From positions 1 to 24,912 of the IMG/VR virus record IMGVR_UViG_3300023180_000371: a stretch of 24,912 nucleotides of DNA, one strand, 5' to 3'. A program made the position numbers and the translations under genes. Origin of the DNA: a virus. How positions within the stretch are numbered: position 1 is the stretch's first letter; every line of letters begins with the position of its first letter. Below, piece by piece: positions 13,722 to 18,574 of this stretch. The notes beneath the pieces were generated by a model. It saw nothing but the letters and a program-made list of their open reading frames with translations. It was not told where the DNA came from and made no database searches.

Positions 13722-14972
13722 TTAAGTTACACTCCAATTCGTTCTCCTTACTATTCCAAATCTTGCAGCATAACTCAATGCATCGACTTGATCGTCATGA
13801 CTGCCACTACTAGGGAATGACGTAAGTTCTCTCTCAAATTCTATCAGCCATTTTGCGTTTTTCAAAAACCATATAGAACCGTTTTCTATTCCAGCTGCAG
13901 CAGGAACTGCTCTTGCTGTTTTACTCTTATCAGCTTTTAAATTTTTAATTGGAAGTCCCTGTCTCCTTGCCATCTGAATAATACCTAGACCGAACGAGGA
14001 ATCCTCAACTCCCAGCCAAGACATATTATATTTATTTATCATCAACTCTATTTTTGGGAGTAACTCAGGAGCCTCTAATCGATCTCGAAATACATCCAAT
14101 ACTAATAATTTACCATCAGTTGTAGATCCAACGGTAATTATTACCGAATAATCTGCAGTCTCCTTAATACTTAATGCAGTGTCCATACATCCGAAGATTG
14201 ATAAATCAGAATGTTTATAAATTTGTCCATCTAAGATATATTCTGGATCTTCTCCATCTATACGATCAAAGTATTTAAACCACTCTCTTTTAAACATGTG
14301 TCCCACTTCGGTAAACTCTGCTAGAAATTCCTGAGCATAAACTAAAGATCCTAATTCTTGTTTAGCCTGTTCGAGTTCTTCCATATTAACTCGAGGAGAC
14401 TCTGCTGTAGTATAATGGAAAATCTTCCAATCTTTTCTCTGTTTTGCAGTTTCAAATAATTCATAGAACCAATTTATCCCATTCGGAGTAGAGATAAACA
14501 ATGCTTTTCCTAAAGAGTCTGAGAGTATTGGACGTACAGTCTCCCAAGTTTCCTTTTCTTGATATGCTGCCTCGTCAAAGATAATAAGATTAATACCTCC
14601 AGCACCTCTAAGAGTTTCAGGTTTATTAGCTGATTTGATCTGTATAGATCCACCGTTTTTTAATACTATTCTTTTTTCTACTTCTCTTATCTCGTAATAA
14701 TCCTCTGGAAGTTGTCTAATCAAAGACTTTAAATTTAACCAAGATTCTAAAGACTGAGGATAAACAGGGAATATAATCCAGATCTTTTTCTTTTTCAATG
14801 CTTGATCTAATGCACTTACGAGACTCAATGTTGTTTTTCCCCAACGACGCCCAGCGACTACAATTACAAATCTCTCAGATTCTATTGCTTTTATAACTTC
14901 TATTTGTCCTGTATGTAGATCAGGAGGAGTTGCATCAATCTTATTTACACTTCGTTGCCCCATACGTCCCAT
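13722..14972 (-). CDS. terL: Terminase large subunit (ATPase-nuclease)
   Basis: A 416-aa DNA-packaging motor. Walker A is AGRRWGKTT (G41-T48), Walker B is LIIFDEAAY (D133, E134), and a coupling motif STPNG lies near 161. The C-terminal nuclease part has acidic residues at D264 (GCMDTALS), E323/D324 (GVEDSSFG) and D393/D394/D397 (SHDDQVDALSYA), the usual RNase-H-like set. The 5' end overlaps the methyltransferase gene by 28 bp. Two in-frame ATGs at 14972 and 14963 are both possible; I use the first, with GGATGG upstream. Confidence 0.97.
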   Translation of the reverse strand: MGRMGQRSVNKIDATPPDLHTGQIEVIKAIESERFVIVVAGRRWGKTTLSLVSALDQALKKKKIWIIFPVYPQSLESWLNLKSLIRQLPEDYYEIREVEKRIVLKNGGSIQIKSANKPETLRGAGGINLIIFDEAAYQEKETWETVRPILSDSLGKALFISTPNGINWFYELFETAKQRKDWKIFHYTTAESPRVNMEELEQAKQELGSLVYAQEFLAEFTEVGHMFKREWFKYFDRIDGEDPEYILDGQIYKHSDLSIFGCMDTALSIKETADYSVIITVGSTTDGKLLVLDVFRDRLEAPELLPKIELMINKYNMSWLGVEDSSFGLGIIQMARRQGLPIKNLKADKSKTARAVPAAAGIENGSIWFLKNAKWLIEFERELTSFPSSGSHDDQVDALSYAARFGIVRRTNWSVT

Positions 14973-15478
14973 CCATCCGTTGTTTGTCTTGCGAATAATT
15001 CAATTCTAGGAAGATCTCCTACAAGTTCTATAATCTTATCTTTTACTATATCTGGTTTTTTTGAGTGTTTTTCTATTGGAGATTCTATAACACTATGGAC
15101 GGATGCACTTATTCTCTTTGGATTTCCTTTGATTGCTATTAAACAAATTTCAGGATTAGATCTCGTCCAACTTCCCATGCCCCAAAAATTCGTCAAAGAT
15201 TTTTTATTCTTCTTAATCCAAACAAAACCGAGAGTTTTATAGGTAAAGCCCCATTCTTTAATAATTTTCTCCGTGTCAAACAATTTAGGGAATGTTGTCC
15301 ATATAAATAAAATACAGTTTTCGTCTGTTATATCTTTTATATTTAAATTTGCTATATCTTTTTCATCCATAGTCGTATAATGTCTCTCTGCCCCCCCCCG
15401 ATTTAAAGACTTATCTCTATATTGCCACGGAGGATCAGCGTAGATAATATTATATTTTTTAGAGAGATTCTGGATCAT
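14945..15478 (-). CDS. MT-A70 family N6-adenine DNA methyltransferase
   Basis: A 177-aa protein with the catalytic DPPW at residues 15-18 in YNIIYADPPWQYRD, then HYTTMDEKDIANL and CILFIWTTFPKLFDTEKI, and a C-terminal SKKPDIVKDKIIELVGDLPR with RIELFARQ and GWDVWGNE. These are the standard MT-A70 / phage adenine methyltransferase blocks; the reaction is S-adenosylmethionine-dependent N6 methylation of adenine in DNA. The 5' end overlaps terS by 20 bp and the 3' end overlaps terL by 28 bp, so it is translated as part of the packaging operon. A run of nine G lies inside the coding region just after DPPW. I see no restriction enzyme partner. Confidence 0.9.
   Translation of the reverse strand: MIQNLSKKYNIIYADPPWQYRDKSLNRGGAERHYTTMDEKDIANLNIKDITDENCILFIWTTFPKLFDTEKIIKEWGFTYKTLGFVWIKKNKKSLTNFWGMGSWTRSNPEICLIAIKGNPKRISASVHSVIESPIEKHSKKPDIVKDKIIELVGDLPRIELFARQTTDGWDVWGNEV
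15391..15399 (-). repeat. G9 homopolymer tract inside the methyltransferase
   Basis: On the coding strand this is nine consecutive G (nine C on the plus strand), encoding Arg-Gly-Gly-Ala at residues 27-30 through CGG GGG GGG G. It is far longer than any other G or C run that I see in this AT-rich genome. Such tracts slip during replication and, in bacterial methyltransferases, switch the gene on and off. With nine G the frame is open; eight or ten would put the rest out of frame. Confidence 0.9.
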
Positions 15479-16672: not shown

Positions 16673-16891
16673 TTATACCTTAAAAACTAGATATTTCGAA
16701 ATTCTATATAATTTATTTGTCTCATCTTCCTGAACCCAACAAACAAACTTATTATTACTTATAAATTCTATTCTTCTAAATACTCCATATCTCCAACGAA
16801 TCTCCTGAGTTGGAGGATCTATAATCTCATCCCAAGGCAAGACAAATTTAATCCTAGAACCAGCATAAATCTTCTTTTTCTTTTTTGACAT
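16673..16891 (-). CDS. Unknown protein, 72 aa
   Basis: ATG at 16891 lies inside the end of the winged-helix gene, an overlap of 38 bp. The sequence begins with a lysine cluster (MSKKKKKIYAGSRIKFVLPW), then DPPTQEIRWRYGVFRRIEF and NNKFVCWVQEDETNKLYRIS. Alternating hydrophobic and charged residues suggest a small beta-barrel. I do not recognise a family. No ribosome site stands out, so it may depend on coupling. Confidence 0.6.
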   Translation of the reverse strand: MSKKKKKIYAGSRIKFVLPWDEIIDPPTQEIRWRYGVFRRIEFISNNKFVCWVQEDETNKLYRISKYLVFKV

Positions 16892-17114
16892 CTACTTCAA
16901 TATTAGGATATCGATTTAACTTATACATGTATTGTCTATGATTGTGTCCCTGTAAATTACATGGTTCTCCCTCAATATTTAGAGACTCTTTACGAAGATC
17001 TGATATTCTTTGAGCATAGTCTTTGATAAATAATTCTCTCATAATCGTTGAACCGCATACCCAATCTCCACTCCAGAGGATATCTTTTATTCTTTGTTTG
17101 TCTGATTTACCCAT
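16854..17114 (-). CDS. Winged-helix DNA-binding protein, 86 aa
   Basis: ATG overlaps the Mom-like gene's stop as TAATG, with GGAGG just upstream. The sequence KQRIKDILWSGDWVCGSTIM followed by DYAQRISDLRKESLNIEGEP and RQYMYKLNRY is the helix-turn-helix plus wing layout found in small phage regulators that recognise DNA (…QRI.DLR..G..I). It directly follows the modification gene and could regulate it or the late operon. That is inference. Confidence 0.7.
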   Translation of the reverse strand: MGKSDKQRIKDILWSGDWVCGSTIMRELFIKDYAQRISDLRKESLNIEGEPCNLQGHNHRQYMYKLNRYPNIEVDVKKEKEDLCWF

Positions 17115-17839
17115 TACAAACCTCCAAATAAATTTAATTGAACGTCCATATCGTCAAACTCCACCTCATAATTTTTATTTTCTCCTTTAGGATATGGGAG
17201 TAAATCTAACTTAAACTCTCTCATAATGTGTCTTTTTTCCGACTTAGATCCGTTGATATAAATATATCTATGTTTTCCCGAGATATTTTTCTTCTGTAGA
17301 TTATAGAAATCGATTATATCTTGATTAGTTGGATTCTCTTTTCCGATCTGTTTTCTAAAAGATGAACTATGTTTTTTATGTCTAAAGTTCTTAAAGTGAA
17401 ACTCTGATCCGTCTGGATATGTAAACTGTACCGTATTTGAACTGACTCCCGTATAAAAAAAATTAGTTGCTTGATAAATATATCCATTATGGCCGTTGTT
17501 TGGATCTGCGAAACTAACTATTATCGTAGGTTTTGGAAGTAACTTAAACGATTTACTAACAAACATACTTAATACATTTTTTTCTAAATTATCAAGAGTA
17601 ATTAATCTATTCAACTCATAAACAATAGATCTATATTTCTCTCCTGCAATTGATTCAGCTAAAGTAGCTGAGGGACTCATTCCGTAAGTAACAACTCCAG
17701 AGATGATTCCATCTATGTAAAGACCGTACGCATACGATACAGAACACAATCTCTTTGCGTAATGTTTATTTAGCAACCAATCACTATAAACGGATTTAGG
17801 TACTTTTTGTACTGATATTTGCATAATATATTTTCCCAT
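17114..17839 (-). CDS. mom: Mom-like DNA adenine modification protein
   Basis: A 241-aa protein of the phage Mu Mom family as judged by its motif blocks: NKHYAKRLCSVSYAYGLYID followed by GVVTYG, then YELNRLI, then VSFADPNNGHNGYIYQATNF with FYTG. In Mu, Mom converts adenine to a carbamoylmethyl-type modified base that protects phage DNA from restriction, using a fold of the acetyltransferase (GNAT) class. The C-terminal 100 residues (HKKHSSSFRKQIGKENPTNQ onward) are an extension with HRYIYINGSKSEKRH. Start could be 17839 or 17824; both overlap the zinc-ribbon gene upstream. Family identity is from remembered motifs, not a search. Confidence 0.75.
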   Translation of the reverse strand: MGKYIMQISVQKVPKSVYSDWLLNKHYAKRLCSVSYAYGLYIDGIISGVVTYGMSPSATLAESIAGEKYRSIVYELNRLITLDNLEKNVLSMFVSKSFKLLPKPTIIVSFADPNNGHNGYIYQATNFFYTGVSSNTVQFTYPDGSEFHFKNFRHKKHSSSFRKQIGKENPTNQDIIDFYNLQKKNISGKHRYIYINGSKSEKRHIMREFKLDLLPYPKGENKNYEVEFDDMDVQLNLFGGL

Positions 17840-17969
17840 CTTTTGCCCATTTTCTTTTCTCTATCCAATATGTAACATCACAATCAGAACATATAAAAAT
17901 TGATCCTCTGAACATAGTCCCTCTCTTTTTACTTAGATCACATTCAGAACAGATATATCTAATACTCAT
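17796..17969 (-). CDS. Zinc-ribbon protein, 57 aa, Com-like candidate
   Basis: ATG at 17969 follows GGGGGA inside the end of the transglycosylase gene; a longer frame upstream lacks support. MSIRYICSECDLSKKRGTMF leads to SIFICSDCDVTYWIEKRKWA: two CxxC knuckles 19 residues apart, then a basic tail. The gene overlaps the start of the Mom-like gene by 29-44 bp. In phage Mu the translational activator Com, also a small four-Cys zinc protein, overlaps the start of mom in the same way. Sequence identity with Mu Com is not visible beyond the Cys pattern, so the functional call is an inference from arrangement. Confidence 0.7.
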   Translation of the reverse strand: MSIRYICSECDLSKKRGTMFRGSIFICSDCDVTYWIEKRKWAKDGKIYYANISTKST

Positions 17970-18363
17970 ATTTCCCCCAGCAATGTTTAGATGCGTTCCA
18001 ATGATGCCAGCCAGAATTACTCTGCAACCATCTTGCAACTCTTATGTTTGTTATTGGATCAAACATATCTAAGGATCTTTTATAAATATCTTTTTCAATC
18101 CAACGAGTAGTCCTCTCATTAAATTGAAATAAACCGATATCTTTTGATCCATCTTTATTAGTATTCGTCGCGTTTACTATTCCGTCTGATTCACAACTCA
18201 TCACGGATAATGCTTGAATCGTGTCCTCTTGAAAATATTGATAAACTTTGTACTGCCATTGCTCAGTATCTTCTATATGATTACAAAGACGATAAGTGTT
18301 TATCATATCTGGAGTAGGTTCAGTAGTAAACAACAACGAACATCCTAATAAAATCTCAATCAC
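17959..18363 (-). CDS. Lysozyme-like / lytic transglycosylase (endolysin candidate)
   Basis: A muralytic enzyme in the lysozyme-SLT fold: ALSVMSCESDGIVNATNTNK has the catalytic-type Glu in CESDG, followed by SKDIGLFQFNERTTRW and a C-terminal RVARWLQSNSGWHHWNASKH with CW. It would cut peptidoglycan glycan strands. I place the start at GTG 18363, overlapping the upstream stop (GTGATTGA); an ATG at 18387 is possible and would add eight residues. The N-terminal IEILLGCSLLFTTEP is short and hydrophobic with an LLGC lipobox-like motif, so the enzyme may be a lipoprotein or carry a signal-arrest-like segment. It sits in the early block, unlike most endolysins. Confidence 0.8.
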   Translation of the reverse strand: MIEILLGCSLLFTTEPTPDMINTYRLCNHIEDTEQWQYKVYQYFQEDTIQALSVMSCESDGIVNATNTNKDGSKDIGLFQFNERTTRWIEKDIYKRSLDMFDPITNIRVARWLQSNSGWHHWNASKHCWGKYEY

Positions 18364-18574
18364 TTCCCAAAGTCTCCCAACATTCATTACAAGACATATA
18401 ATCCATACTTGTAATAGGAAATATAAAAGTTCCTTTACACATAAAACAACTGAACATCCTTATTTCTTTTGGTGTATCGTTGTTCTTAAATATATAATTC
18501 TTTAAATAAAAAATTATATTCTTTGGATATTTAAAGAAGTTTTTAATTAATAATTTCTTAAGATCTTTATTCAT
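18356..18574 (-). CDS. Small basic protein with two CxxC motifs, 72 aa
   Basis: ATG at 18574 overlaps the upstream stop as TAATG. The first half is lysine/phenylalanine-rich (LLIKNFFKYPKNIIFYLKNY), the second holds CFMCKGTF and SCNECWE, two CxxC pairs 20 residues apart that form a plausible zinc ribbon. I do not recognise the family. It belongs to a run of tightly coupled small genes in the early block. Confidence 0.65.
   Translation of the reverse strand: MNKDLKKLLIKNFFKYPKNIIFYLKNYIFKNNDTPKEIRMFSCFMCKGTFIFPITSMDYMSCNECWETLGSD

Follow-up and report, generated by a model that had tools for sequence, protein, structure and literature searches.

Our analysis suggests that aquatic phages have repeatedly furnished DNA-modification enzymes of unrelated kinds with the same C-terminal tag for binding the sliding clamp. 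Mom, methyltransferases of the N4/N6 and C5 types and possibly an enzyme of the phosphorothioation type would carry this tag, so that phage DNA would be modified at the host replisome during its synthesis, as a viral parallel to the eukaryotic DNMT1-PCNA pair. From the sequences compared here, we consider this proposal fairly likely. The case at the centre of the analysis is a small aquatic phage, represented by a 24,912-base IMG/VR virus record that was analysed over its whole length (the window). It encodes a member of the Mom family with a clamp-tag-like tail and with a zinc-ribbon neighbour that is not homologous to the Com protein of phage Mu. The genes concerned are ordered SLT, ribbon, Mom and 86-aa gene along the minus strand, and every neighbouring pair overlaps (Table 1).

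Table 1. Features of the Mom locus and of its surroundings in the window.
Feature	Position	Strand	Basis
SLT-type transglycosylase/lysozyme gene, directly upstream of the ribbon gene	17959..18387	-	PF01464, E 4.7e-8
57-aa C4 zinc-ribbon gene, CxxC-x16-CxxC	17796..17969	-	Homologues, invariant Cys, dN/dS
Mom-family gene, 236 aa from the conserved ATG (241 aa from 17839)	17114..17824	-	PF25680, phrog_1384, AlphaFold model
Ribbon-Mom overlap of 29 nt (3' end of ribbon, start of Mom)	17796..17824	-	Conserved Mom ATG in relatives
QLNLF, Mom residues 229-233, candidate beta-sliding-clamp-binding motif	17126..17140	-	Motif consensus; disordered tail
86-aa gene downstream of Mom, ATG overlapping the Mom stop	16854..17114	-	Winged-helix-like by eye; syntenic in relatives
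72-aa two-knuckle (CxxC) protein, just ahead of the SLT gene	18356..18574	-	Second ribbon-before-gene arrangement of the operon
MT-A70 adenine DNA methyltransferase, second DNA-modification gene, without the C-terminal motif	14945..15478	-	PF05063, E 7.1e-31

By its sequence and predicted fold, the 236-aa protein is a GNAT-fold DNA-modification enzyme of the Mom family. The initial annotation had called the gene Mom-like from motifs that are indeed present in it, and the profile searches agree with this assignment: the ORF scored 123.4 bits against the Pfam family Mom (PF25680; curated cutoff 27.1) and matched both phrog_1384, 'Mom-like DNA modification protein' (E 4.7e-53), and, by phmmer, the sequence of Mu Mom in PDB 8bv8 (E 5.7e-9). 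An AlphaFold model built with 24 sequences (pLDDT 82.8) had Mu Mom 8bv8 as its best PDB match by Foldseek (E 3e-12). Structural alignment with 8bv8 gave a Z of 18.5 over 172 residues (rmsd 3.4), compared with 11.5 for the best other acetyltransferase, which places the protein annotated at 241 aa within Mom/GNAT. Moreover, S86 aligns with the catalytic Ser124 of Mu Mom, the residue replaced by Ala in 8bv8, whose entry title reads 'inactive mutant S124A', and H58, Y59, R111, D149 and Y159 are also retained. The Mom family is characterised by N6 carbamoylmethylation of adenine in DNA, and by analogy with Mu the window's enzyme presumably also forms an adduct on adenine. A defence-system profile search with Mom gave no match.

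Family, GNAT fold, catalytic Ser and conserved positions are thus common to the two proteins, whereas an N-terminal extension of about 37 aa is present in Mu Mom and absent from the window's Mom; conversely, an insert near residues 150-180 and a disordered tail of about 23 aa ending QLNLFGGL are present in the window's Mom and absent from Mu Mom. The earlier remark that the C-terminal 100 aa are unlike Mu Mom was not borne out, since the sequence alignment reaches the last residue of the Mu protein (Y239 P240 K241) and the structural match spans residues 1-213 of the model; the insert and the last 23 or so residues are the only extra parts on the C-terminal side. Larger Moms of 307-424 aa were seen in L035, L042, L019, L022 and their relatives, where an insert with weak YunG, NADAR or HTH matches stands before the conserved C-terminal part and a Qxx[LMI]F tail is still found at the end.

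The tail of the window's Mom is predicted to be disordered (residues 217-236, pLDDT < 50), and its QLNLF fits the bacterial clamp-binding motif Q-phi-x-[L/M]-[F/L], of which QLxLF is the strongest form and in which clamp binding depends on the Q, the L/M and the F (PMC11139829). QLNLF is the motif of DNA polymerase V, and several clamp-binding motifs sit in C-terminal tails (PMC11139829). The pentapeptide in a flexible C-terminal tail is therefore a trait that Mom has in common with Pol II, Pol IV and Pol V (UmuC QLNLF); the difference is that the motif stands here on phage DNA-modification enzymes, and methyltransferases are not mentioned in that review. Among the first 80 relatives, nearly all complete Moms end with Qxx[LMI]F (10 of 13 clusters at 70% identity). 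A second scan started from a Listeria Mom without the motif and yielded a largely separate sample; the loci that it contributed carry the motif in 17 of the 44 clusters they represent, by hand count. When both scans are taken together, Qxx[LMI]F lies within the last ten residues in 41 of 71 Mom clusters (80% identity), and QLNLF itself is also found in L191, L197 and L210. Mu Mom and the surveyed Moms of cultured phages have no clear C-terminal Qxx[LMI]F, and for this reason the motif is, as far as these sequences tell, a feature of part of the Mom family and one that Mom activity as such does not require. One contig, L251, encodes two Moms, and the C-terminal motif is present on both. In the open-access literature, no paper was found that connects the bacterial clamp with Mom or with methyltransferases of phages and, as far as this literature goes, a clamp-tag-like tail appears to be undescribed for phage DNA-modification enzymes.

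The tail is not confined to Mom. In the first set, the motif was carried by 11 of the 289 other ORFs of at least 150 aa, all of them among the 24 ORFs similar to DNA-methyltransferase seeds and none among the 265 others, although the seeds were partly picked for the motif and a p value from this 24-versus-265 split overstates the association. Ten of these 11 ORFs were checked: nine match Pfam N6_N4_Mtase or C5 DNA_methylase, and the tenth is a phrog_757 DNA methyltransferase. With the second set added, the motif occurs in 15 of the 354 other gene clusters of Mom contigs (13 DNA methyltransferases, a second Mom and a PAPS-reductase/SspD-like protein) and C-terminally in 0 of the remaining 339, non-modification clusters, with the qualification that the clusters are not fully independent, the gene calls are mechanical and the motif is short. 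Six of the motif clusters were new after the idea had been formed, namely four N6_N4 methylases, the second Mom and the PAPS-reductase domain protein with its SspD-like PADLOC match. In 20 contigs found with one N4/N6 methylase, the tail varies around a QxxLF that is conserved in most complete relatives. The PAPS-reductase domain protein (L220:4441-5229), which has the SspD-like profile match, ends with QLKLF; it may be a DNA-sulfur modification enzyme with the same tail.

The presence of one short tail on several unrelated kinds of enzyme hints at a common partner. For this role the clamp is the best candidate, given the match of the motif and the frequent position of Mom genes beside replication genes (DNA polymerase, DnaB/SSB and even sliding clamp). 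In Arthrobacter phage Zartrosa, roughly 0.5 kb separates the Mom gene from a sliding-clamp gene of the phage itself. Taken by its sequence distribution, the tail suggests that phages dock DNA-modifying enzymes on the replisome. For the window, we consider it fairly probable that QLNLF in the disordered tail binds the host beta sliding clamp and would thereby bring Mom to newly replicated phage DNA, where the enzyme probably shields the phage genome from host restriction via adenine modification, as Mu Mom does. It is rather unlikely that the C-terminal Qxx[LMI]F is instead another short motif, such as a protease tag or a dimer contact. Clamp binding is read from a sequence pattern and its distribution, and tails ending with Phe might affect protein stability, but the tail is seen on DNA-modification enzymes alone, which are of three or more unrelated kinds, and its fixed residues are the key positions of clamp binding (PMC11139829). 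An archaeal PCNA motif, considered in view of a terminase match that included Halorubrum virus 4, was set aside: many tails end right after the Phe, a better fit to the bacterial clamp motif. In eukaryotes, the DNA-modifying enzyme DNMT1 is brought to new DNA by the replication clamp PCNA (PMC9690074); the phage case differs in that the enzymes are unrelated, the clamp is of another type, the viruses are bacterial and the interaction is a predicted one. If the clamp tag is true, it would explain how modification keeps pace with replication, and its sequence signature would allow metagenomes to be searched for unknown DNA-modification enzymes of phages. Restriction enzymes are able to attack phage DNA during copying.

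Of lesser weight is the com-mom question, the answer to which would show whether zinc-ribbon control of Mom expression arose more than once. The ribbon is, on sequence grounds, a real gene under purifying selection, because dN/dS is below 1 in every informative pair (for the non-overlapping part only), all four Cys are invariant in the relatives, L115 included, and relatives are encoded in 17 viral contigs. Mom lies directly downstream in 16 of these 17 contigs, in which it is 69-100% identical, the overlap measures 29 or 41 nt and the SLT gene stands ahead of the ribbon. The two genes are also found apart. In the 24-kb contig L115, the ribbon relative is 58-60% identical and lies near methyltransferase-like genes, and Mom is not detectable. 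In L014 and L015, Mom is 78% identical and the ribbon is absent from both contigs, which are fragments of 6-7 kb whose genomes may have a ribbon elsewhere. The ribbon slot between SLT and Mom is filled there by a phrog_757 DNA methyltransferase (L014:1437-2126) and Mom is intact, as if DNA-modification genes were swapped at this slot. Cultured phages gave no credible relative of the ribbon, and a single 13-residue match in genome contigs was judged to be due to chance. The defence-system profile search was likewise without match for the ribbon, and its predicted structure has a pLDDT of 46.

The initial annotation had interpreted the ribbon and Mom genes as a com-mom cassette. Mu Com binds RNA and acts as a trans-activator (PMC6483171), and in its outward traits the ribbon is indeed similar to Mu Com (PF10122): both are small basic C4 zinc ribbons (net charge +5 for the ribbon and +6 for Com), directly upstream of and overlapping mom, with an identical CxxC-x16-CxxC spacing (Cys 7/10/27/30 in the ribbon, 6/9/26/29 in Mu Com). 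The Mom half of the proposal and the order, overlap, spacing and charge stand. Com homology does not, and Mom without ribbon and ribbon without Mom also weigh against the Com half. None of ten ribbon family members matched PF10122 at E up to 1 (36.8 bits for the Mu Com control). Profile-profile comparison of the ribbon with Com by hhalign, using cleaned alignments and control ribbon families, gave 5.7%, within a range of 0.1-69% for other ribbon pairs and lower than several pairs of ribbons without known relation; a run before the alignments were cleaned had given 43%. Homology to Com was accordingly rejected after Pfam, NCBIfam and profile-profile searches, with generic ribbon similarity only. 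Small ribbons precede Mom in 7 of 65 Mom clusters. With the group of the window left out, 5 of 63 remain, which is no significant enrichment over the background of 13 of 354 (p = 0.12). Among 22 Mom loci of cultured phages, a two-knuckle ribbon directly before Mom was seen only in the Mu-like Pseudomonas phage JD024.

The signals around the Mom start were also compared with the Mu arrangement. The overlap described previously is real, in that the minus-strand 57-aa ORF (17969-17796; knuckles CSEC and CSDC) overlaps the Mom-like ORF ending at 17114, but its length is 29 nt rather than 44 because the conserved Mom start is the ATG at 17824, the sole start common to all close relatives, and not that at 17839, which is absent from L012-L015. 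Such an overlap is nothing special in this operon: the SLT gene shares its last 11 nt with the start of the ribbon gene, and the junction between Mom and the 86-aa gene overlaps as well. The ribosome-binding site of Mom is located inside the ribbon ORF (GGGAAA in the window, GGGAG/GGAAG in relatives). RNAalifold found no structure and no covariation support at the Mom start across relatives; the window's own start has some predicted structure (z -1.7), and the Mu control was no clear outlier, so that the hairpin test is a weak one. The accessibility of the Mom start is ordinary for the window's genome and lowest in the ribbon-less L014 and L015, in a test where the Mu control was again no clear outlier. 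As for the GATC sites that had been pointed out near the ribbon gene as in Mu control, those at 17902 and 17936 exist, but their density is near the window average (191 seen versus 146 expected in the window, about 1.3 being expected per any 174 nt) and the site in the first knuckle is not retained in relatives such as L007. A Mu-type Dam control via clustered upstream GATC sites was rejected as chance for this reason.

These results make it unlikely that the window carries a convergent com-mom cassette, in which the ribbon protein would bind the mRNA near the Mom start and switch on Mom translation like Mu Com. The Mu-like order, overlap, Cys spacing and charge, together with the retention of the ribbon with Mom in 16 contigs, argue for it, but the Com similarity is at the level of generic ribbons, no conserved hairpin was found in the weak test available, the start is less rather than more accessible where the ribbon is lacking (Mu being no outlier), the two genes also occur apart, and other Moms are not significantly preceded by ribbons. 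The Com reading of the ribbon thus leans negative. It also seems improbable that the ribbon protein is a Gin-like zinc knuckle regulating transcription or a sigma factor, or a DNA-binding partner of modification enzymes, with an incidental position before Mom. Among solved proteins, the ribbon profile comes closest to the anti-sigma factor Gin (E 0.003) and the L115 ribbon is near methyltransferase-like genes without Mom, but the similarity to Gin is marginal and limited to the zinc knuckles, and a single ribbon sequence scored far below the cutoff against Pfam Gin.

We lean slightly towards a reading of the whole locus as a Mom enzyme with a clamp-binding tail and a ribbon gene coupled to it in cis, rather than as Mom with an obligatory Com-style activator. 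We favour translational coupling in cis, with the ribbon protein having a role of its own, because Com homology is lacking, ribbon and Mom are separable and ribbons are not significantly enriched before Mom. The Mom start and its ribosome-binding site lie inside the ribbon gene, and for this reason Mom translation would probably be coupled to ribosomes already on that gene, as it would be where other genes of the operon overlap. Against this reading stands the presence of the ribbon with Mom in 16 of 17 contigs, a tighter association than a chance neighbour needs. The ribbon is a conserved operon gene for a small basic protein, putatively of a nucleic-acid-binding or RNA-polymerase-binding type, and the protein itself is probably not an obligatory trans-activator in the manner of Com.

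Concerning the rest of the operon, the SLT gene is syntenic upstream of the ribbon in relatives, and a Pfam search with the 86-aa gene gave no match. The arrangement of a ribbon before a gene is present twice in the window's operon, before Mom and before the SLT gene, and a second two-knuckle zinc protein before the SLT gene is also encoded in L012, L013, L014 and L016. Finally, CCGG is strongly depleted in the whole window (3 seen versus 18 expected), which, with the over-representation of GATC, suggests selection against a CCGG-cutting or CCGG-targeting system.
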